From Fervidobacterium nodosum Rt17-B1 (GTDB lineage Bacteria; Thermotogota; Thermotogae; Thermotogales; Fervidobacteriaceae), in NCBI RefSeq assembly GCF_000017545.1, contig NC_009718.1, positions 930,001-994,000 of the forward strand: a stretch of 64,000 nt of DNA, written 5' to 3'. Made by a program: the position numbers and the translations under genes. The notes under the pieces were generated by a model. It was not told where the DNA came from. It made no database searches and saw only the letters and a list, made by a program, of their open reading frames with translations. This document shows positions 47,228-63,451 of this stretch, piece after piece (within the stretch, counting starts at the first letter, position 1; each line of letters begins with the position of its first letter).

Positions 47228-48300
47228 TCTTTTTTTATGATTTTGTTAACCAAAGGTATTGATAAATTTCAAAAACCATATTATCTTCTTAAAGAGGGGA
47301 CACCCCCCAATATACTCTCAATAAGGAGGTATCCCGACATGACTAATATCCAACTCAAATGCCCTCATTGCGGCTCTTCTAACTTCATCAAAAATGGTCA
47401 TGATAAGTTCAAAAACCAAATCTTCTTTTGCAAAGACTGCAAGCGTTACTTTAAACTTTCTTTCACCAAAAAACACAAACTTTTCTCTTTCCCTTACCCT
47501 CGTTGTGTTCATTGTAACCATGTCATGGAAATTTACAAAATCCGCCGTTATTTCGTTCGTTTCAGATGCAGAAAGTGCAACTTCAAAACTTCTGTTCCAC
47601 TTTCTCTTCCTCAGCCTGTGCCTTTCAACTTTCATCCTTTCAAATTCTTCCGTTTCCCTATCTATATCATTCTCAAAGCTTTCATATTGTACTTCAAATA
47701 CAACCTTTCTCTTCGTGCTATTAAAGCTTGCTTGAATATCAATGTCTCTCATGTCGCTATTTACAAATGGATTATCAAGTTATCTTCTGTTATTTCGCTT
47801 TTTGAGTTTGAGAATGTATTTAAAGTTCATGGTGATGAAACAGTTATTGTATTTCGAGACAAAAAGTACTATGTGTGGCTATTAGTTGAGCATGGTACGA
47901 ATTTAATAGTAGCTTGGCATGTATCAAGATATCGTGATATGTCACAAGTTAAGATATTGTTAGATAAATACTTTAGTCAAAGAAAACAAAACACACAAAT
48001 AGAGTTAATAACCGATGGACTAAAAGCGTACGAGATAGCAGTAAAACTAAATTTTGATAATGTTGAGCACAGAGAAGTAAGACTAGGTAAAAACAACGAA
48101 TGTGAATCGAAATTTTCGTTATTTAAGATGTTTGTTAGAGCGAAAAGGAGCTTCAAGAAATTTAGCAACATACGGTACTATGTAAATGGTTTTTGTGTAG
48201 TAAGGAACCTATGCAAGTTATATGAGAACGAAAATGAGATGATTACAGCTTTAGCTTCCATCATCACTACTAGTTAACAGCATCTTTTTTATTCTTAATT
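47228..48300 (+). mobile_element. IS-like insertion carrying a DDE transposase (ends not resolved)
   Basis: A transposase gene lies between the cyclodeaminase ribosome site (47219-47227) and the decayed chemoreceptor gene. The true ends are not clear: GTTAAC occurs on both sides (47245-47250 and 48273-48278), but it is palindromic and too short to trust. Boundaries given are approximate. Confidence 0.55.
47339..48277 (+). CDS. DDE transposase with double zinc ribbon (IS6-like)
   Basis: 312-residue transposase, seemingly complete. The N-terminus has two CxxC zinc ribbons (CPHCGSSNF...FCKDC and CVHCNHV...RCRKC), then an HTH region (LSLRAIKACLNINVSHVAIYKWI). The catalytic domain has HGDETVI (Asp), LITDGLKAYE (Asp) and NNECESKF (Glu). 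AAGGAGG precedes the ATG at 47339; the longer frame to 47237 has no ribosome site. The family call is by architecture; IS6-related or an unclassified relative are both possible. Confidence 0.8.
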   Translation: MTNIQLKCPHCGSSNFIKNGHDKFKNQIFFCKDCKRYFKLSFTKKHKLFSFPYPRCVHCNHVMEIYKIRRYFVRFRCRKCNFKTSVPLSLPQPVPFNFHPFKFFRFPIYIILKAFILYFKYNLSLRAIKACLNINVSHVAIYKWIIKLSSVISLFEFENVFKVHGDETVIVFRDKKYYVWLLVEHGTNLIVAWHVSRYRDMSQVKILLDKYFSQRKQNTQIELITDGLKAYEIAVKLNFDNVEHREVRLGKNNECESKFSLFKMFVRAKRSFKKFSNIRYYVNGFCVVRNLCKLYENENEMITALASIITTS

Positions 48301-48512: not shown

Positions 48513-50988
48513 ATGAGTATTAAAATGGTGAATTACATTTTATTACCTGTGTTAGTTGCTTTGGGAATTATTTTAACTGTTTTCTTAGGATACCATTTAA
48601 CTATCGATATTAGCCACCTTTGAATGAATAAGATTGAAGAAACATTTGTAAAAAATTTGGACAACAAATTTGAAGATATTCATAAAAACCTTCAACTTGC
48701 ATCCGATTATATTCTATCCAAACAACAGATATTAGAAGCATTTGCTAACAAGGATAGAGATACGCTAATACAATACGTGATGCCAATTTACGAGAATTTA
48801 TCAAAAAACTACAGAGTCAACCAAATACATTTTCATACTCCTGATTTGAAATCGTTTCTCAGAACTAATGATTTAAATAAATACGGAGATAGTTTAGACT
48901 TTAGAAATGACATAAAATATGCTCATACAATACGTGATGCCAATCCATGAGAATTTATCAAAAAACTATGAAACCAACCTAATACACTTCCATACTCCTG
49001 ATTTGAAATCGTTCCTCAGAACTAATGATTTAAATAAATACGGAGATAGTTTAGACTATAGAAATGACATAAAAGTTGTGCTCCAGAAAAAAGAACCCAT
49101 ATTTGTATCATCTCCAGGCAAAAGTGGTGTTGGCTTTAGATACGTAAGACCTGTATACTATAACAACGAATTTGTGGGTACAATGGAAGTTGGATTTTTA
49201 TTAAGTAAAGAAACGCTTAAGCAAATGGGAGAAGCTATTGTCTATCAATTCTTAGATGAATATGGTAAACCTGCAGAAATAATTACAAAACCTGACGAAG
49301 TTGAAGATTTTCTGCAAAAGTACAACATTGAAAACCTAAAAGCTGGAAAAGAATCTTCTTTTAGGGATGATAAATACTTTTACATAAATTATCCATTAAA
49401 AAATGTCGACGGTCAAACATTTGCAACCATTCTTCAAAGAATAGACGCAAGAAATATTTTTAGTATGCAGAAGAAAGGTATAACTTCACAGATTATAGTA
49501 GGTTTACTCGTAGCTTTAATAACAATAGCTGTTGTTATATTCTTCTCCTCACTCACGGTGAAAAAGATCTCAACTCTTGTGATAGAAATAGAAAAATTAC
49601 AAAAAGAAAGGAACTTAGCAAAAGGAATCTCATTCAAATCAGGTAAAGATGAAATATCAAGCGTTTTTCAAAAATTATCTGAGTTGCTCGCTAATTTAAG
49701 AAATATAATAAAAGAATTTGTCCTCTCATCAAAAGATTCTAACATTAGATTAGGTACACTTATCTCAAAAATCGATGATTCTTACTTCTCGCTTAAAGCG
49801 TTCAAGGAAAGCTTTGAATATGGAGTTCAAATGGCACAAACAGTATCTTCTTCAGTAGAGGAAACAACAGCAACAATAGAAGAAATATCTGCCACCACAT
49901 CAAACATATCAAAAGCTGCTCAAAGCGTTGCCACAGCAGTTGAAAAAATAACTAATGATGTTCAGCTAAGCAACGATTCGATTGTTCAAATGAAAGGTTC
50001 TGTTGATGAAACAATTCAAGGTTCTCAAGAAATAGTTGGGTTCGCAAATCAATTGAAAGAAAAATCCGAAAGGATAGGAGATATATTAAAGACTATAACG
50101 GATATAGCAGAGCAAACGAATTTATTAGCGTTGAACGCGGCAATAGAAGCGGCGCGCGCTGGAGAAGCTGGAAGGGGATTCGCGGTTGTCGCGGATGAAA
50201 TTAGAAAACTGGCTGAAAGCACAAGGATATCGGCTACAGAGATAGGTAAAATTCTAACAGAACTAAGAGACGGAGTTGGTGGAATAAGCGAAAGACTTGA
50301 AAGTTTTGATGAAAAGATTAGGAATATAGAATACGCAACTAAGTTGGTGAGTCAGAAACTTGAAGATATACAATCTGAAGTAACAACGCTAGAAAAAGAA
50401 GCATCAAACCTCGCGGCTGTAACGGAGGAACAAAGCGCATCTATAGAAGAAATATCCGCAGCAATGGCAACATTGTCAAAAACAGCAACCGACATGAGTG
50501 AACAGATGGAAATGAACAAAGAAGGGGCAGAAGAAATGGAAAATAGCTTTAAACTTATGAAACAATCCTCTTTTGAAGTATCTGAGTCATTTAAGAAAAT
50601 CGCATCAATTATATCAAGTGAAATAACCATTTTCAGCGAAAGCGAATTAAAAGACTTAATTAATAGTGCGATAGAAGCCCATGAAAAATGGGTGAAAGAT
50701 GTGGAAAGTGCTATAAACAGAATGGATGAAAAATTGAATGTCGTATTAGATGGCTCATTCTGCAAGTTTGGATCTATTTATCATTTCATTAGGCCACCAG
50801 AAAAAGTAGCGGACAAATGGAGAGAAATAGATGCACCACACATGAAAATCCATGCGCTCGGAAAAGAAATAGACGAGGCTTTAAGGAAAAAAGATTACGA
50901 AAAGGCAAAGCGTTTATTCAAAGAAGTTGAGAATACAAGAGACGAAGTAATCCGACTTACGAAGGAAATAGCCAATAACCTAAGTTAA
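48513..50988 (+). pseudogene. Methyl-accepting chemotaxis protein with CZB domain, broken by stop and frameshift
   Basis: GGAGGTGAAATTA-ATG begins a reading frame with a first membrane helix (residues about 8-27), stopped by an in-frame TGA at 48621-48623. The frame continues at once (MNKIEETFVKNL...) into a dCache_3-like sensor ([12 protein letters not shown]...NKYGDSLD), then a 157-bp tandem duplication shifts it by one base. The remaining frame from 48919 (689 codons) encodes the rest of the sensor, a second helix, the MCP coiled coil with a canonical tip ([16 protein letters not shown]) and a C-terminal CZB zinc-binding domain ([19 protein letters not shown]). The C-terminal frame has no ribosome site, so I call the gene broken; partial expression remains possible. 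Confidence 0.8.
48764..49077 (+). repeat. Tandem duplication, 157-bp unit, inside the chemoreceptor gene
   Basis: Unit 1 is 48764-48920 and unit 2 is 48921-49077. I count about 14 differences over the first 154 bases, roughly 91% identity. The unit length is not a multiple of three, so it breaks the frame. It covers the ligand-facing part of the dCache sensor (YVMPI...NLSKNY...[12 protein letters not shown]). Confidence 0.85.
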
Positions 50989-54821: not shown

Positions 54822-55700
54822 TTAATTGTCCCTCTTGCCCGTTTTTCCTATTATGTACGCATACCAAGCAGCACCGATAAAAATTAGAATAATACTAACA
54901 ACCTGAGCTGCTCGAAAGTGACCTGCCATAAGGCTGTCAAGCCTTAGTGATTCGATCCAAAAGCGACCTAATGAATAAAGTATAAGGTACAAAGCTGTTG
55001 TTTCACCATATTCACGTTTTCTTTTTTCAACAAAAAAGTACAGAAAAACAAATATAGTTATATCCCACAAACTTTCGTATAAAAAGGTTGGATGGAAAAA
55101 TCTATCAATATCAAAACCTGGCATTCTTCTTTCAGGTGGAACATACATTTTCCAAGGTAGTGTGGTGGGTCTTCCATAGGCTTCGTAATTGAAGAAATTT
55201 CCCCATCTACCGATGGCTTGAGCCAAAGGAAGCACAGAAGTAAACAAATCGGTTGCGTGGACAAATTTAAAATAACCTTTTATTTTTGAGTATATAAATA
55301 TCATCAGCAGAGCTCCAAATATACCACCATGGATAGCTAATCCACCGTGCCATATCTTATATATCTCCGAAGGATATTTCGAGTAGTAATTCCAATTAAA
55401 AATAACATAGTAAATCCTTGCCCCCAATATTCCGGCAACAATTCCCCAGAATAATCCCTCATCAAGATCTTCTGGTTTAATAGGATACATGCTTAATCTT
55501 CTTCTCGCAAGTACGTAAGCGACTAATATACCACTTGCAATACAAATACTGTACCACCTCAATTGAAATTTGCCAATTTGGAAAATGTAATCCCTAACAA
55601 TAAGCCGTCCAGAAAAAACTTCCCTTAAGAAGAAAAACAATCCAATTCCAACGGCTAAAATAATCACGACTGATAATATAATTCTTTTACTTTTGCTCAA
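54822..55700 (-). CDS. lgt: Prolipoprotein diacylglyceryl transferase with extra N-terminal helix
   Basis: 292-residue membrane enzyme that adds diacylglycerol to lipoprotein cysteines. Core signatures: HGGLAIHGGIFGA (catalytic His region) and AIGRWGNFFNYEAYG, with the late SLGRFWIESLR. An extra hydrophobic helix (IILSVVIILAVGIGLFFFL) precedes the usual first segment. I start at the TTG at 55700, which has GGAGGA 9 bases upstream and overlaps the preceding stop by 4 bases (TTGA). Confidence 0.92.
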   Translation of the reverse strand: MSKSKRIILSVVIILAVGIGLFFFLREVFSGRLIVRDYIFQIGKFQLRWYSICIASGILVAYVLARRRLSMYPIKPEDLDEGLFWGIVAGILGARIYYVIFNWNYYSKYPSEIYKIWHGGLAIHGGIFGALLMIFIYSKIKGYFKFVHATDLFTSVLPLAQAIGRWGNFFNYEAYGRPTTLPWKMYVPPERRMPGFDIDRFFHPTFLYESLWDITIFVFLYFFVEKRKREYGETTALYLILYSLGRFWIESLRLDSLMAGHFRAAQVVSIILIFIGAAWYAYIIGKTGKRDN

Positions 55701-56998
55701 CTTTGGCTCCTCCTTTTTCTTAAATCTTTTTCCCATAGTTGTTGATAAATATAACTTACATTAGCTAATTTCTCCTTTATTGAATCATCGAACGGTATAT
55801 ATCTCCAAAATATCTCACGAACAGGTTTTTCAAGCTTTTGAATACCGGCAACTTCTTTAGTAACCCATAGTAAATAATCTTTTACGAAATATTCCGCCGG
55901 GTTTCCTTTATACTTGTTGTTTTCAAGATACCTGTAATACTCTCCAGTTAAACCTTCCTCCATCCACCTGCCGAAAGAAAGCTCTTTTTCCAACTTCCAT
56001 CTATATTCACCAAAAGCTTGGTAAAATGGTTCAGTGCCTTTGCGTGAGAAAAGTGGTACAACAATTCTACCACGACCGTAAATATTCAATCCTTCAATAG
56101 GTTCCCAACAGAAGCCCATTTCGCCGTAACCCGGGACCAAAATTATATAAGGTGGCATAAATACTTCTGTACCACGTATATTTCTGGTAAGTGAAGTTTT
56201 ATCGATAAGCTTAAAATTTTCAATTAATTCGTTGACAAAAGATTTCGTGAAGACTTGGTTTATTTCTTTAAAGTAATTCGATATCAATGCAGGATATTGA
56301 ATACCAAATTTTCCAATAGCTTTTTTCACCATCTGCCTTACAACTAAGTGTTCTGTCAATTTCTTTTCACTACTTGACTTTAAAGGCAAATTTCTTTGTT
56401 TTTCATGCATCGAATCTAAAACTTCCTTTAAGTTCTTTATATCACTATCCATCTTCTTCAATTTTCCAATAGCTTTTATAACCTCATCAAATATTACGTA
56501 AACGCCTTTTGAATATGGTCCCTTCCCCTGTATTCCTTTCACAAGGTCTTTAAGTTTTTCTTCCTCTATACTTCTTTCAAACAACCTTCGTTCGTACTCC
56601 TTCTCAAACATTGTAGGATCAATTTGTCTTTCTTGCATACTATCTTGAATGACATCTTCGAAAGTTGATGGAGGAACTTTGCTTTTCTTAATAGCAATAA
56701 TCCATTCATCAGCATAAAAAACTGTATCACTCTGCACAAGCTTTACAATTTCTTTTATTCTATCCCAATCTTTTGCTAAGTAACGCGGATCAACAATGCC
56801 AGCCCTAATGAATAATCTTTGCTCCATAGGACTGTTTTCTTCAAGTAATTCCGCAATATTTAAATACACATCCCAAAATATTTCAGTGAAAGAATCTTTG
56901 TACTCGTTGAAATTCTCTTCTTGAAGTTTTTTCCTCTTCAAAAACTCTTCTTTTAACCCATCATCAATTCCTGATAAAAGCTTATCAAGATATTCCAT
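55697..56998 (-). CDS. Uncharacterised 433-residue protein
   Basis: Large soluble protein, no signal or membrane segment, family not recognised. The first 250 residues look helical and charged (YLDKLLSGIDDGLKEEFLKRKKLQEENFNEYKD, SPMEQRLFIRAG). A central block has proline/glycine-rich strands (VFMPPYIILVPGYGEMGFCWEPIEGLNIYGRGRIVVPLFSRKG), and the end is helical again with a basic tail. GGAGAGG precedes the ATG at 56998, one base after the stop of the winged-helix gene. Position in the chemosensory run suggests a shared job, unproven. Confidence 0.75.
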   Translation of the reverse strand: MEYLDKLLSGIDDGLKEEFLKRKKLQEENFNEYKDSFTEIFWDVYLNIAELLEENSPMEQRLFIRAGIVDPRYLAKDWDRIKEIVKLVQSDTVFYADEWIIAIKKSKVPPSTFEDVIQDSMQERQIDPTMFEKEYERRLFERSIEEEKLKDLVKGIQGKGPYSKGVYVIFDEVIKAIGKLKKMDSDIKNLKEVLDSMHEKQRNLPLKSSSEKKLTEHLVVRQMVKKAIGKFGIQYPALISNYFKEINQVFTKSFVNELIENFKLIDKTSLTRNIRGTEVFMPPYIILVPGYGEMGFCWEPIEGLNIYGRGRIVVPLFSRKGTEPFYQAFGEYRWKLEKELSFGRWMEEGLTGEYYRYLENNKYKGNPAEYFVKDYLLWVTKEVAGIQKLEKPVREIFWRYIPFDDSIKEKLANVSYIYQQLWEKDLRKRRSQS

Positions 56999-56999
56999 C

Positions 57000-57611
57000 T
57001 CAGCCTCTCCAAACAAGCTTGAGTTTATCACCTAAGAATTCCACAGAGTAAACATTTCTAAAACCTTTTCTCAACGCTTTCTCGCACATTTTATCAACAT
57101 TTTTAAAAGAAGCGACAATTAAAGCGTCCGCTTGTATATTTGTCTCTAAGCTTAAAACAGGTACTCCTTCTATCTTTGTCCCAACTTTGTTTCTGTCATC
57201 ATCTAAAAACGCTATAACATTGAATTTTTCTTTGTTAGCTATTAATCTAAATAATATCTTACCAACAACGCCGGCGCCGTAAATACAGATGTCTTTTTTT
57301 CCAACAAGCTTTAAAAACACATCCTGAAATTTAACTTCGATGCTTTTATACAATTCTGAAATTTCAGACAAATACGCTAATCTTAAATAATTAAGTTTTA
57401 TTAATCCTTTATTTGTAAGTTTATACTTCCCTTCGACTTTTTCCACAAGCTCATCTGAAAGAAAGGATTTAAGGTATTTATTAACCAACGAAGGTACAAT
57501 ACCTGCCTTCAAAGATATTTCGGAATGAGACGTAATTCCTTCGGAAAGAGCTTGTAAAATCATCATTTGTTTGTATAAGGGAGAATATTCAAAAAAATCA
57601 AATTTTTCCAT
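57000..57611 (-). CDS. Winged-helix plus Rossmann-fold protein
   Basis: 203 residues. Residues 1-65 read as a winged helix (MMILQALSEGITSHSEISLKAGIVPSLVNKYLKSFLSDELVEK...YKLTNKG). Residues about 105-200 form a small Rossmann fold starting CIYGAGVVGKILFRLI and AFLDDDRNKVGTKIEGVPVL, like the CoA/NAD-binding N-domain of sugar acetyltransferases or Rex. It could be a nucleotide-sensing regulator (inference); it is not Rex by sequence. GAGGAGG precedes the ATG at 57611. Confidence 0.75.
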   Translation of the reverse strand: MEKFDFFEYSPLYKQMMILQALSEGITSHSEISLKAGIVPSLVNKYLKSFLSDELVEKVEGKYKLTNKGLIKLNYLRLAYLSEISELYKSIEVKFQDVFLKLVGKKDICIYGAGVVGKILFRLIANKEKFNVIAFLDDDRNKVGTKIEGVPVLSLETNIQADALIVASFKNVDKMCEKALRKGFRNVYSVEFLGDKLKLVWRG

Positions 57612-57630
57612 CCAAATCCTCCTCATAATC

Positions 57631-58896
57631 TCACAATTTTATATCTCTAAACATTTGACCGAATTTTTCTACCTCAGATTTTATTTGACTAATTGCTTCT
57701 TCAAGTTGTTCAACACCTGCATACAACTGTTCCACAGCTTCATGAGTATTTCGAGAAATTCGAGAGAGTTTGTCTGTATTCTGTGTCGACGCAAATACAA
57801 CTTGGCTTATTAGATTCAATGATTCTCTGACATTGTTTAATTCTTTGGATATTTTTTCAGTAATCAAGACAGTCGAAGTAACTACTTTATCAACGTCTTT
57901 AAGTGAATTTTTTGACTCCTTGGCAAGAGAACGAGTTGAATTAGAAAGTTCCATTATCATTTCCGCTATTCGAGAAAGTCCGTCACGGTCTATTGTTTCT
58001 TTACTCGTCTCAATCGATGCGTTTATAGCTAATACAGTTATATTATCTGATATTTCAGTTATTTTTTCAACAAACCCGCCAACAGATTCTATCATATTCG
58101 TTAATTCCGTAACAGCATTCGTTATTTCTTCTATTGTTTTCGTAAAGTCTTTTATTCTATCTAATGTCGTTTCCACTTCCGCTCGGCTTTCTTCAAAATA
58201 AGCTGCAAATTCTTCAACTGATTTATCAAGCTCCATAGAGGCTTCTTCGGTATTTTGTGCCATAGATTTTATCTCAGCGGTTGAAGTAGATGTTGATATG
58301 ATATTGTCTGAAATCTTCTCCAACAATTCATTTGTCGCATAATATTGTTTCTTCGTAGGAGCAATAAGAATACCTCCAAAAATATAACCAATAATTATGG
58401 AAATTATAACCATTACTGGAATTAGAAACTTAAATATGTTAGATTGCAATCTTTTCAAATCTTTGAAAAGCTCATCTTCCCTTGCTGCATGAGCAAAGTA
58501 CTTTTCACCATCGTAAGAAAAAGCAACGTATCTTTTTACTCCTTGGTATAAATAAGAATATACTCCCGATTTTTCTTGTTTCATATATTCCAATAACCCT
58601 GGAACTTGGGTTTTTACGTCAATTCCTATTTTTGTCGGATCTGTATGGTAAAGCGTTATACCTTCAGTTGAAAGAACATAGTAATATCCAAATTCTGGTT
58701 TGAAATTAAGTAAAAAATCGTATTGTTTTATTTCGGAAAACACTTTTGTCTCATTTAAAAAATTCTTAAGTGTAATATTTTCGATAATTTTTGAAACTTG
58801 AGAAATCAATATCGAAAAGAAAACCAAAGTCGTTGCAAAAATTAATAACGCAATTATTAAAGCATACTTAGTTCTAAGTTTCATCCTTAATTTCAT
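57631..58896 (-). CDS. Divergent chemoreceptor-like membrane protein
   Basis: 421 residues. Helix 1 at 12-33, a small Cache-like sensor (34-155, YYYVLSTEGITLYHTDPTKIG...GVYSYLYQGVKRYVAFSY), helix 2 at 156-180, then a coiled-coil signalling domain. The segment at 279-322 aligns without gaps to the canonical MCP hairpin of the 50-kb receptor (16 of 44 identical), but the tip residues EAARAGE..GRGF are replaced by ETSKETIDRDGL. The cytoplasmic rod is also short. It probably couples to the CheA/CheW encoded upstream rather than to the general chemotaxis array (inference). GGGGGTGG precedes the ATG. Confidence 0.85.
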   Translation of the reverse strand: MKLRMKLRTKYALIIALLIFATTLVFFSILISQVSKIIENITLKNFLNETKVFSEIKQYDFLLNFKPEFGYYYVLSTEGITLYHTDPTKIGIDVKTQVPGLLEYMKQEKSGVYSYLYQGVKRYVAFSYDGEKYFAHAAREDELFKDLKRLQSNIFKFLIPVMVIISIIIGYIFGGILIAPTKKQYYATNELLEKISDNIISTSTSTAEIKSMAQNTEEASMELDKSVEEFAAYFEESRAEVETTLDRIKDFTKTIEEITNAVTELTNMIESVGGFVEKITEISDNITVLAINASIETSKETIDRDGLSRIAEMIMELSNSTRSLAKESKNSLKDVDKVVTSTVLITEKISKELNNVRESLNLISQVVFASTQNTDKLSRISRNTHEAVEQLYAGVEQLEEAISQIKSEVEKFGQMFRDIKL

Positions 58897-58920: not shown

Positions 58921-60228
58921 TTATGTTAATTTTTCAATTAGCTCTCCAATCGTTTCACCGTGCCACTCGACAACTTTACAATCAAAATCAATTTTAATAT
59001 TTTCACTTTGTGCAATTTTTTGTACATTTTTTTTGCACTCTTCAATCTCTAATTTAGCTCGTTCTATATCTTCGCCAATAAATATACAAACGAACTCATT
59101 AGCAGAAAACCTTGCAGAAAACTCCTGAAATTTCTCAAGAAAAACGTTTCCAATCTTTTTCAATAAATTATTTGTCGCATCTTCACCATGTTTAGTACTT
59201 ATCTCTCTAAGATTTTTGATTGTTAATTTTCCAAGTGATGCTGGCAAGTTATTCCTTTGAACAAAATCCAAAGCGTTCAATAATCTCGTTCTAAAATATG
59301 TTTTATTGTATAACCCGGTGACTTCATCTATCTCTTTTCCTGATGAAAGATTGTTGTAATCGTTAATTAAACCTATTAAAGCACCAATTGGTTCGTTAAC
59401 AATCGAAAGCACATGTTGAACAACTTCATGTGAAGAAGGCTCTTCCACAACTAAAAACCCTACAGGTTCACCCTTTTGGTAGATAATCTCTATTACAAAA
59501 TTATCTTTTATTTTTCTATTTCCATCAAAATATGCTTTTACACTGGAATAATATCTTATGCCCGTAAAATTTTCTATAAACGAATGTAATTCTTCTGGCG
59601 AGGCTAAATTCTCACCAAACCCATAGAGCCTCATTTCAGACAATGAACAAATGCTCATATACATCGCTTTAAAGTTCAGTACTTCACTAAAAAGTTCAAA
59701 AAGCTTATTTACAACAAGCCTTTCATCGTAAATAAATTCGGAATAGCTCATTATTTCTCTCACCAGAGTCGATTCTTTTAAGCTCTCTTCAATTATATCC
59801 ACAAGTTCTCCATATGGTTCTATATGGATTTTGTAAATTTCCCTTGACCATTCCATAGCGAACGGTTTATTGACAAATTCAAGTACTTCTTTCTCTAATT
59901 CATCTTGAGGAAGTGTTTTCTTTAAAAAATAATTCACACCACTTTTTTTAGCCCAAAATTTATTGACTGTTTCATCAGCACCTGTAAGCATGATTATTCC
60001 AACATTTTTCGAAAAACTAAAACTCCTAATGAAGCGTGTGAAATGTATACCATTAAGCTTTGGCATTACGTAATCAACAATAACAACATCTGGGAGGAAA
60101 GTAAAAAACTTGTTTATACCATCCAAACCATCTTTGGCGGTTTCAACATTGTAACCCTTAATTTCCAAAAGATTCTGCAAAAAATTTCTCCAAACTGTCG
60201 AATCATCAATCGCGAGCACTTTTTTCAC
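58921..60228 (-). CDS. Response regulator with degenerate GGDEF domain
   Basis: 435 residues. Receiver domain 1-120 with the phospho-Asp in VVIVDYVMPKLNG and DDS near the start. A middle GAF-like region (about 140-280) follows. The C-terminal 150 residues follow the GGDEF fold (EVTGLYNKTYF), but the active loop reads SANEF instead of GGDEF, so cyclase activity is not expected. It may bind a partner or nucleotide instead. The GTG at 60228 has GGGGTGA upstream. 29 bases after cheB. Confidence 0.88.
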   Translation of the reverse strand: MKKVLAIDDSTVWRNFLQNLLEIKGYNVETAKDGLDGINKFFTFLPDVVIVDYVMPKLNGIHFTRFIRSFSFSKNVGIIMLTGADETVNKFWAKKSGVNYFLKKTLPQDELEKEVLEFVNKPFAMEWSREIYKIHIEPYGELVDIIEESLKESTLVREIMSYSEFIYDERLVVNKLFELFSEVLNFKAMYMSICSLSEMRLYGFGENLASPEELHSFIENFTGIRYYSSVKAYFDGNRKIKDNFVIEIIYQKGEPVGFLVVEEPSSHEVVQHVLSIVNEPIGALIGLINDYNNLSSGKEIDEVTGLYNKTYFRTRLLNALDFVQRNNLPASLGKLTIKNLREISTKHGEDATNNLLKKIGNVFLEKFQEFSARFSANEFVCIFIGEDIERAKLEIEECKKNVQKIAQSENIKIDFDCKVVEWHGETIGELIEKLT

Positions 60229-60257
60229 ATTTATCACCCCGCTTAAATTATTTATAA

Positions 60258-60851
60258 TCAATAATCTTGCAAAGCTTGTCTGTTAATTCTTATTATTATA
60301 TCTTTTATTCTACTCTGTTCCGCTTGTTCATACCTCATTTCTAATTCTTTCGCGATGTTGTTTGGCAGATAAGGAAACCTTGGACTTTTCTCAATAACAA
60401 ATTTAACTCCCTTATTTCTGAGTATTTTGGCATAGTCTTTTCCATCGTCGCCAAGTCCGCCGAGTACTATAATAGTTGTTTTATCGTCTGCGTATTTGAC
60501 AAGCGATTCAAATAACTTTGATATCGAAGGATGTACCTTATATTCACTCTCAACAGAATTCAAAGTATTTTCCGAAATGAAAATTATATCTTTACCGCCT
60601 TTTGGTAAGTATATTTCATTTTTTATAGGAGTTGGTTGATCAACGATTTTTACTATATGTCCTGTCTCAATTTCGATGTGATTTGCAAACGTTTCCATAG
60701 CACTACTTGTAAAATGGATACATATAATTACTGGAATATTAAGCTTTTCGTTTATTTTCAAAAGGTTTACTGCAACATTAGGGCTTCCCGCGGAACCAAC
60801 AATTATAACTTTGTAATTAGCTTTATTAATCATATCTTTTGAACTTTCCAT
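60258..60851 (-). CDS. Stand-alone CheB-type methylesterase domain
   Basis: 197 residues matching only the catalytic domain of CheB. The triad is visible as Ser in VGSAGSP near residue 20, His in CIHFTSS near 45 and Asp in LGGLGDDGKDY near 135. The usual N-terminal receiver is absent; receivers are supplied by the neighbouring proteins. It would demethylate or deamidate receptors. No cheR is visible in the window. Confidence 0.88.
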   Translation of the reverse strand: MESSKDMINKANYKVIIVGSAGSPNVAVNLLKINEKLNIPVIICIHFTSSAMETFANHIEIETGHIVKIVDQPTPIKNEIYLPKGGKDIIFISENTLNSVESEYKVHPSISKLFESLVKYADDKTTIIVLGGLGDDGKDYAKILRNKGVKFVIEKSPRFPYLPNNIAKELEMRYEQAEQSRIKDIIIRINRQALQDY

Positions 60852-60875: not shown

Positions 60876-62630
60876 TTATCCTACCAATTTTTCGATTAAT
60901 CTCAGCAATCTCTCTGGTGATTCTTCTTTTGATAAATAAGCATCCGCACCAACTTCGAGTCCTTTTGCTAATTGTTCTTTAGAAAGTGTGCTAAACAATA
61001 TCACCGGTAAGTCTTTTTTTATTTGTTTTATTCTCCTTGTGGTTTCAAAACCATCTATATCTGGCATTTCCACATCGCAAACAACAACATCGCAATTTGA
61101 ACTCTCAACATAACTTATCGCTTCTGAACCATTTTTGGCTTCTATTACCTCGTAACCAAAAGCTTCCAAGAACTTAGATACAACACTTCTTGTAACGACA
61201 GAATCGTCAACGAGTAAAACATTGATTTTCTTTGTTTTTTTAACTTCTCCTTCTCTAAATGAATCTATATCGATTATAGGTAATGGATAAACATAAACAT
61301 TTTTGACAAAACCCTTTACAGATGGATAGCTTTCACTACTTACTTGCCCATCGAAAATGCCAACTATATTATCTACGAAAATAGCTCTATAATTTCGGGT
61401 TATTATTCCAAATCTTGGATTCGAGGATTTGTACACTACATCGCATACCTTATCTTTGTATTTAACTTTACCATCAATTGCTTTTAACTTCGTAACTATC
61501 TCAAGCACGTCTTGTGTACTTATACAAAATTGTTGCCCATCAGCTTCAAGAACGAGTACTTTAATAAGGAATGATTTCACTGGAAAGTGGATTATAAACC
61601 GTGTTCCTATTCCCGGTGTAGTAACAAACTCCACATCACCACCACGTGCCATAGCAAAATTCTTGACAGCGTCAAGTCCAACACCTCTACCAGCTGTACC
61701 ATCAGCTTCTTCTTTTGTTGAAAATCCGGGCACAAATATAACATCCTCTGGTCTTAAGTGTCCAAGGTTTCTCTCCATGGCTTTCTTTCTTACTTTTTCA
61801 AAGTCTATCCCTTGACCATCGTCTTCTACCTCTAAATAGAGTTCATTATTCAGCACATAACTTCTAATAGTTATTACGCCTATTTCGTCTTTTCCAATTT
61901 TTTTCCTTTCATCAGGCGATTCTATACCATGAGATATCGAATTTCTAACTAAGTGAACAAGTATATCAATTAAAGCTTTCGAATCTTTCTTCTCAACCAT
62001 TTCATCACCAATCTCAAGGTTTAATCTTACTTTCTTTTTTGCATTCGTTGCCTCCTGAACGATTAATGTATCGAAGTTCGAAAGAATATTTCGAAGCTTA
62101 GTATAGTATAATTCTTGGATAGTGGAAGTTAATTTGGACTTCGCCAAACGAATAATCCTAAGTGCACTATTTATATCTCCACGCATTAAGCTATTTTCCG
62201 TTGTTAGAGCCATCGATAAAAATTCTTGGATATATTCGACAGATAAAGCTCCCTGCTCTTTAGAAAATATAGTTGTTTCAGCCTCTTTCTTTCCTTCTAA
62301 CCTATCGATTAAATCCTGGACTTCTGATTCTGAAAGGTCGCCATCACGCTCCAAAAGAGGTGGTATTATCGATAATAGCCTTGACAAAAATTCATCTGAT
62401 AATTCACCTTGTCCAGCCAAATAACTTTTGAAGTAATCTTCGATTTTATGAAATAAATTTTTGTAACCAACAAGTCCAACAAGACTTGCTGACCCTTTGA
62501 TAGTGTGAAATAATCTGTATATATCATTTATCAACGCTCCATCTCTCGATTCAAGGAAGGATTTTATGTCATTTATTGATTCATTTCCCTTCTCACGAAG
62601 TTCCTCAAAAAACATTTCTAAGAAGTCCAT
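60876..62630 (-). CDS. CheA-type histidine kinase fused to a receiver domain
   Basis: 584 residues. HPt at 1-105 with phospho-His in RLFHTIKGSASLVG; no CheY-binding P2; dimerisation helices about 130-200; ATPase about 200-345 (HLVRNSISHGIESPDERK, DDGQGID, GRGVGLDAVK); CheW-like about 350-450; receiver about 465-584 with phospho-Asp in VVCDVEMPDIDG and Lys in LSKEE. Hybrid CheA-REC proteins are typical of Tfp or alternative-function chemosensory systems. AAAGGAG precedes the ATG. Confidence 0.93.
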   Translation of the reverse strand: MDFLEMFFEELREKGNESINDIKSFLESRDGALINDIYRLFHTIKGSASLVGLVGYKNLFHKIEDYFKSYLAGQGELSDEFLSRLLSIIPPLLERDGDLSESEVQDLIDRLEGKKEAETTIFSKEQGALSVEYIQEFLSMALTTENSLMRGDINSALRIIRLAKSKLTSTIQELYYTKLRNILSNFDTLIVQEATNAKKKVRLNLEIGDEMVEKKDSKALIDILVHLVRNSISHGIESPDERKKIGKDEIGVITIRSYVLNNELYLEVEDDGQGIDFEKVRKKAMERNLGHLRPEDVIFVPGFSTKEEADGTAGRGVGLDAVKNFAMARGGDVEFVTTPGIGTRFIIHFPVKSFLIKVLVLEADGQQFCISTQDVLEIVTKLKAIDGKVKYKDKVCDVVYKSSNPRFGIITRNYRAIFVDNIVGIFDGQVSSESYPSVKGFVKNVYVYPLPIIDIDSFREGEVKKTKKINVLLVDDSVVTRSVVSKFLEAFGYEVIEAKNGSEAISYVESSNCDVVVCDVEMPDIDGFETTRRIKQIKKDLPVILFSTLSKEQLAKGLEVGADAYLSKEESPERLLRLIEKLVG

Positions 62631-62657: not shown

Positions 62658-63410
62658 TTATTCGATAATCTCATATGTTCCCTCGTCTGTCTCAAGCATT
62701 TTCTTACCTGATTCGTGATAAAGTTCGTTTCCAGAAACGAGCGTTATCTTTCCGGTTCTATAAGCAATATTATCGAGAACCACAATAAATTTTCCCTCAT
62801 CAATATTTTTGACTGGTATTATTTTCTTATAATCTATAAAACCATCATAGCCGTGGAATTTGTAAGGAGTGACTAAATCGAAAGATACAATAGTTTTCAC
62901 ATTACTTTTTCTCACCGCATACTTTCCACCGATAACTACGAAATCCGCTTTTTGAGAATCAATCTTAGTCTTTTTTTCTTCTTTTTCCTCTGACGAAATC
63001 ACTCTTGCTTCAATAGGTAACTCCACGTTATGAATATTGTATACGTAATAAAACTCTCTGTCTTTTTGCACAACACCTATGTATTCAGATATCGATTCAA
63101 ATTTAGACCCCTTTTGTATCGGTAAGTTAGGTGATATAGGAATGATTTCTCCTTCTATTTCCTCAATCACTCTTGTAACTCCAAAAGCATACTTTTGGAG
63201 AATAATAAAGTACTTTAAAACAGGAGAAGACAACTTTGAATGAGTAACGATGGGGTACAGGAAATTACCATGTTCCGCAAAACCAAAAATAATATCCTTT
63301 TCAGGGCCCGAAATAAATTTTTCACTTATACCACTGACAAGAGATTTTTCTATCGCTATCTTTATGGAACCTTTATCATACTCAATTTCACATGCGTAGA
63401 ACTTTGCCAT
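62658..63410 (-). CDS. CheW-like protein, apparently with two CheW-type halves
   Basis: 250 residues. Each half has a strand pattern and loops like CheW (first half: AIEKSLVSGISEKFISGPEKDIIFGFAEHGNFLYPIV; second half: FVVIGGKYAVRKSNVKTIVSFDLVTPYKFHGYDGFIDYKKIIPVKNI), joined by a Lys/Glu linker near 145-155. Probably the coupling protein between the divergent receptor and the CheA-REC kinase. The ATG at 63410 follows GGTGATA. The CheW assignment is by pattern plus neighbours; similarity is weak. Confidence 0.7.
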   Translation of the reverse strand: MAKFYACEIEYDKGSIKIAIEKSLVSGISEKFISGPEKDIIFGFAEHGNFLYPIVTHSKLSSPVLKYFIILQKYAFGVTRVIEEIEGEIIPISPNLPIQKGSKFESISEYIGVVQKDREFYYVYNIHNVELPIEARVISSEEKEEKKTKIDSQKADFVVIGGKYAVRKSNVKTIVSFDLVTPYKFHGYDGFIDYKKIIPVKNIDEGKFIVVLDNIAYRTGKITLVSGNELYHESGKKMLETDEGTYEIIE

Positions 63411-63451
63411 TATCACCACGCTCCATTTTAAAACATCTTAAATTATTCAAA

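Follow-up and report, generated by a model that had tools for sequence, protein, structure and literature searches.

An altered chemosensory receptor tip in Thermotogota and changes in its likely CheA and CheW-like partners

A Wsp-like gene cluster and its receptor

The stretch of DNA analyzed here, referred to as the window, comprises 64,000 nucleotides of Fervidobacterium nodosum (positions 930001-994000 of a single-contig genome of 1,948,941 bases). It contains a chemosensory gene cluster with a Wsp-like composition: a receptor, CheR-TPR, a tandem CheW-like protein, CheA-REC, CheB without a receiver, and REC-GGDEF. The features considered below are as follows.

57631-58896, minus strand: receptor (MCP), 421 aa, with two membrane helices, a short extracytoplasmic sensor, and a signaling domain
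57931-58062, minus strand: altered hairpin tip of this receptor, residues 279-322 (Tsr 368-411)
50095-50226, plus strand: canonical tip used for comparison, in the receptor at 48919-50988
58921-60261, minus strand: REC-GGDEF response regulator, 446 aa, with the receiver Asp retained and a degenerate GGDEF motif (SANEF)
60258-60851, minus strand: CheB methylesterase domain alone, without a receiver, 197 aa
60876-62630, minus strand: CheA, 584 aa, with Hpt, P3, HATPase, a diverged P5, and a C-terminal receiver
61230-61577, minus strand: CheA P5 region, residues 352-467, without a Pfam CheW match and of low confidence in AlphaFold
62658-63419, minus strand: CheW-like coupling protein, 253 aa, with two repeats, each related to the cluster P5
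63452-64000, minus strand: 3' part of the CheR-TPR methyltransferase gene (384 aa overall), which extends beyond the window (L011 7453-8607)
57000-57626, minus strand: winged-helix and Rossmann-like protein, 208 aa, adjoining the cluster in two genera (g1 and g2) only
55697-57031, minus strand: conserved 444-aa protein with no assigned function, adjoining the cluster in the same two genera (g1 and g2)

As in class ACF (Wsp), CheR-TPR, a hybrid CheA, and a multidomain response regulator are encoded in one cluster. Clusters with CheR-TPR have been tied to ACF, and CheR-TPR genes typically belong to pathways that serve alternative cellular functions (PMC3447774). The same gene order is found in Fervidobacterium-related genomes and in families f5 and f10, with one genus lacking some of the regulators. 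In family f3, the cluster has no receptor, and the altered-tip receptor gene occupies a separate locus. The proteins encoded at 57000-57626 and 55697-57031 are candidate outputs, or chance neighbors.

CheB (60258-60851) consists of the methylesterase domain only and is therefore not controlled by phosphorylation of a receiver of its own; the CheA receiver may take over this control. In the output regulator, the GG(D/E)EF active-site motif is degenerate in all members of family f1, to which the window belongs (SANEF in the window), and intact as GGEEF in families f3, f5, and f10, that is, in three of the four families. The motif indicates that catalysis is lost in f1 after the split, and because GGEEF is intact in the other three families, the ancestral output was probably c-di-GMP synthesis. 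In the window's family, the regulator may act by binding instead. Loss of the genome's c-di-GMP machinery was ruled out as the cause of the degenerate motif, as 18 GGDEF and 2 PilZ places remain.

The receptor scored 44.7 bits against the Pfam MCP family (PF00015), above the curated cut-off of 34.6. Residues 279-322 (ITEISDNITVLAINASIETSKETIDRDGLSRIAEMIMELSNSTR) align without gaps to the canonical tip at 50095-50226, with 16 of 44 positions identical. The best alignment at any other offset gave 11 of 44 identities, a shuffled tip reached 16 identities in 0.05% of 2,000 trials, and the BLOSUM score was 73 in the tip register compared with 19 in the next register. Realignment thus reproduced exactly the coordinates and the gapless count given in the original prediction, which was made from the window's letters. 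The gapless alignment stands for the tip, where the register is certain; elsewhere the coiled-coil register against that of the canonical receptor carries a heptad ambiguity, and the claim is therefore restricted to the tip. No single register outside the tip was found for assigning the receptor's heptad length class.

Within the tip, the trimer-core residues I377, L380, N381, V384, and E385 (E. coli Tsr numbers) are retained or conservatively changed, in agreement with the earlier statement that the coiled-coil core is kept. The loss of the EAARAGE..GRGF set at the hairpin turn was also borne out: only E385 and G395 of this motif are identical in the receptor, and R388 is conservatively replaced by K. 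In the window receptor, D305 is equivalent to Tsr R394, E316 to Tsr N405 (K in canonical Thermotogota), I302 to E391, and R309 to V398. We infer that the altered tip retains the hairpin fold of a receptor and, because the trimer-core residues are kept, that the receptor probably still forms trimers of dimers. A single methylation consensus site (AAYFEESRA, residue 231) is present in the receptor.

The sensor region of the canonical receptor (48624-50988) looks partly duplicated, a 108-aa open reading frame (ORF) repeating the start of the 689-aa ORF. A transposase-like ORF (47237-48277) lies just upstream.

Conservation and distribution of the altered tip

The receptor's signaling domain has strong matches in 28 of 103 genomes of the phylum. 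Among them, G100 has an ordinary tip, and the other 27 Thermotogota genomes carry the altered tip, whose consensus is INxSIExSKxxIDREGhxKI; D392 and G395 are invariant. Mean pairwise identity among 25 aligned signaling domains is 66% in the tip and 38% in the rest. Homologues with a normal tip would have pointed to decay of this one copy; the altered tip is instead the most conserved stretch of the signaling domain across the family. When 84,980 species genomes were scanned with the family alignment, the best matches listed from outside Thermotogota had ordinary or near-ordinary tips, and no altered tip from a non-Thermotogota genome was among the matches listed.

The window's genome encodes seven MCPs with a full-strength signaling domain, besides two weak altered-tip receptors. 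The second of the latter lies at 830 kb and is 63% identical to the window receptor over the signaling domain; the genome therefore has at least two receptors with the altered tip. This second receptor (830072-830752; L012 3560-4786) is unlinked to the cluster and has a different sensor part. Short receptors of 269-273 aa without an obvious sensor domain carry an altered-tip variant, IDRNAL (L079 6947-7756 and L080 6379-7200).

The cluster CheA was found in 28 genomes at E<=1e-40, a set close to that of the altered-tip receptor. It lacks G049, a frame-broken draft in which CheA fragments are present, and adds G085 and G009, which have partial or more distant CheAs. Every intact-cluster genome with the altered tip has the cluster CheA, and in f3 the two genes are at separate loci. 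A normal CheW system coexists in every cluster-bearing genome tested.

Changes in CheA and the coupling protein

A simulation of the Thermotoga maritima complex, backed by E. coli crosslinking, places CheA-receptor contacts at D333/K390, D345/R379, and E390/R379 (CheA/receptor), which are 304/405, 316/394, and 361/394 in E. coli numbering (PMC6746300). Canonical Thermotogota receptors have ten tip positions with conserved charge, and only 394 and 405 reverse in the altered family: R394 is replaced by D or E in 25 of 25 receptors, and K405 is replaced by D or E in 18 of 25. On the CheA side, our reference was the 19 P3-P4 columns in which all 14 canonical family members and E. coli have an acidic residue. 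The columns with the most acid-to-basic changes were 316 (K or R in 14 of 25 cluster CheAs) and 361 (19 of 25), followed by a column with 5. Positions 316 and 361 are acidic in none of the 25 cluster CheAs, and K or R occurs at one or the other in every cluster CheA. In the window CheA, K166 is equivalent to E. coli D316, M210 to E361, and N154 to I304 (D in canonical Thermotogota). Because P3 is a diverged coiled coil, the placement of columns 304 and 316 depends on the alignment; for the cluster CheAs, three MAFFT modes gave the same placement.

The third contact varies within the family. Receptor 405 and CheA 304 carry opposite charges in 13 genomes and like charges in none. CheA 304 is never acidic where receptor 405 is acidic, and three f3 genomes, with the two genes unlinked, combine a basic receptor 405 (K or R) with an acidic CheA 304 (E or D). 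A similar covariation trend with receptor 405 is seen at 307, 308, and 311, which share a face of the P3 helix with 304. Among 714 charge-varying pairs, 405/304 comes 10th, in a ranking confounded by clade structure.

As a control, we examined CheAs outside the family. R, Q, or M was found at 361 in 4 of 24 of these, together with a basic residue or glycine at tip position 394, and they include hybrid CheAs with ordinary tips from outside the phylum. On this ground, a basic residue in place of E361 was ruled out as a stand-alone signature, and relaxed constraint may account for part of the change at 361. K or R at 316 was found in none of the 26 CheAs examined outside the family.

In a tree of P3-P4, the 25 cluster CheAs form one group (97/90) adjoining a second group of f3 CheAs; deeper joins are unsure, with long branches. 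The change at 394/316/361 is common to all cluster members and the change at 405/304 is absent in f3, which suggests that the rewiring occurred in two steps.

Pfam detected Hpt and HATPase in all 30 related CheAs and the CheW domain in none of the 30 at E<=1. A CheW domain was detected with HMMER in all 13,673 CheAs of a published survey, which may have selected for CheW (PMC10782961). Two of the three domains used for class placement (H-kinase_dim, HATPase_c, and CheW) go undetected by Pfam in the cluster CheAs. P3-P4 of the cluster CheA aligns to CheA structures with an E value of 7e-30, and the match ends at the start of P5. The cluster P5 lacks the (L)RGxxxP segment and matches canonical P5 profiles with an E value of 0.05 alone and 6e-5 with CheW added, a weak profile-profile match.

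The coupling protein has diverged as well. The window protein does not match the Pfam CheW family (PF01584), and 7 of 24 homologues do (best E value 2.3e-8). Within it, one half matches the other (E value 8e-7), and the cluster P5 is matched by the second half (E value 4e-7). On the basis of these matches, the 253-aa protein is probably a tandem CheW-derived coupler. A profile search of the PDB with the coupler alignment gave no match, and AlphaFold models made with two-sequence alignments had pLDDT scores of 32 for the coupler and 23-36 for the CheA P5. In E. coli CheW, Arg62 sets the geometry between the receptor and kinase sites (PMC3828127); by alignment, the matching residue is not kept in the coupler.

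A probable dedicated array and its alternatives

We consider it probable that the receptor belongs to a dedicated, co-evolved array, which would probably also be insulated. The original prediction had the receptor signaling through a CheA and CheW of its own that co-evolved with it. Sequence comparison supports this well: the partners have altered charges at the published receptor-CheA contacts, and the CheW-like protein and P5 are too diverged for the Pfam CheW family. The receptor would provide the input to a second, complete chemosensory system with a Wsp-like set of components. The surface of its tip facing CheA and CheW has been replaced, with acidic residues where normal receptors have R394 and K405, and the cognate CheA is mostly basic or neutral at 316, 361, and 304, where normal CheA has D or E. 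Because the contact charges of receptor and CheA are swapped, cognate pairs would be expected to attract each other, and cross-pairs with the main CheA would bring like charges together. The coupler and P5 have changed in parallel. The proteins would presumably assemble into a physically separate array that repels non-cognate partners and is under methylation control (CheR and CheB are present, with the one consensus site). Insulation from the main array is thus a plausible, and likely, consequence.

It is unlikely, in our assessment, that the receptor has its own CheA and CheW yet also joins the main array, with the charge changes as a by-product of general divergence. The trimer-core positions 377, 380, 381, 384, 385, and 388 are still similar, such that mixed trimers would be possible, but the trimer-stabilizing pair E402/R404 is lost on both sides. 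Although hybrid CheAs from outside the cluster lose E361 and D316 while the tip is unchanged, a basic residue at 316 is found in 14 of 25 cluster CheAs and in 0 of 26 others. In addition, the surface positions of the tip have become fixed for new residues instead of varying.

Somewhat less likely still is a non-canonical geometry, in which the tip would engage the tandem coupler by a novel mode and CheA would be regulated without P5 docking. The charge changes fall exactly at the canonical receptor-P3/P4 contacts, and residues along one side of the P3 helix (304, 307, 308, and 311) vary together with receptor 405, both of which a retained geometry would predict. In favor of the non-canonical geometry, P5 and the coupler have diverged beyond the reach of Pfam and PDB profiles, the coupler is a tandem repeat, and P5 lacks the LRGxxxP segment.

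Loss of function with a drifting tip has almost no probability left: many canonical tip residues are gone, but the receptor sits in an intact six-gene cluster, and decay of a single receptor copy is ruled out because the altered tip is common to 27 genomes, is the most conserved region in 25 homologues, and is 69-78% identical to its closest relatives.

Beyond a dedicated array, the cluster could represent a distinct array class, so far confined to Thermotogota, with a stepwise charge exchange and a tandem-CheW coupler, orthogonal beside a normal array and missed by domain-based surveys of CheA; we regard this broader reading as evenly balanced. As part of it, the distribution of the changes suggests that 394 changed with 316 and 361 first, and 405 with 304 later.

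Several known systems resemble this one in part. The Wsp system of Pseudomonas and Burkholderia (class ACF) likewise has a receptor, CheR-TPR, coupler, CheA-receiver hybrid, CheB, and REC-GGDEF encoded in one cluster. The Thermotogota cluster differs from Wsp in that its CheB has no receiver, in having one tandem coupler in place of two CheWs and, for the window's family, in the degenerate GGDEF motif. The tip is ordinary in a Wsp-like cluster used for comparison (L226), whereas tip, P5, and coupler are all replaced in the Thermotogota cluster. The main array of Thermotoga maritima comes from the same phylum, and contacts 304/405, 316/394, and 361/394 can be placed on both; unlike in that array, the contact charges in the cluster are reversed or neutralized and the Pfam CheW domain is absent. 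Spirochete F2 arrays (Treponema denticola) also have unusual ring components (CheW-CheR-like) and altered ring interfaces, but there it is the ring interfaces that changed, and here the receptor tip itself is replaced (PMC7666581). Enterobacterial receptors that use CheV are similar in that receptor groups are matched to different adaptors through positions in the signaling domain; unlike the Thermotogota tip, their tip core is conserved and few positions differ (PMC4742279).

The standard classification of chemosensory systems depends on the receptor tip and the CheW domain, which are regarded as invariable. In this cluster the two were replaced jointly, and the replacements have persisted for a long time alongside a normal array in the same cells. 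The cluster therefore offers a natural test of the contacts that hold an array together and of how crosstalk between parallel arrays is avoided, and the swapped residues form a set that could be transferred to laboratory E. coli arrays.

Other diverged systems were encountered in the phylum. In G009 (L112 6677-8185, 8202-9623, and 9611-10018), a more distant system has a receptor with the tip EIDPRAFEALSREI, which adjoins its own CheA without a receiver and a 135-aa CheW-like protein and is possibly another independently diverged tip. Family f3 has a second diverged system (L106, L108, L110, and L117), in which a CheA of 445-456 aa with a short P5 lies beside a half-CheW protein of 105-116 aa. 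Separate f3 receptors (L138 and L129) have the tip TIDRQAIKALADEI and could be partners of this second f3 CheA.
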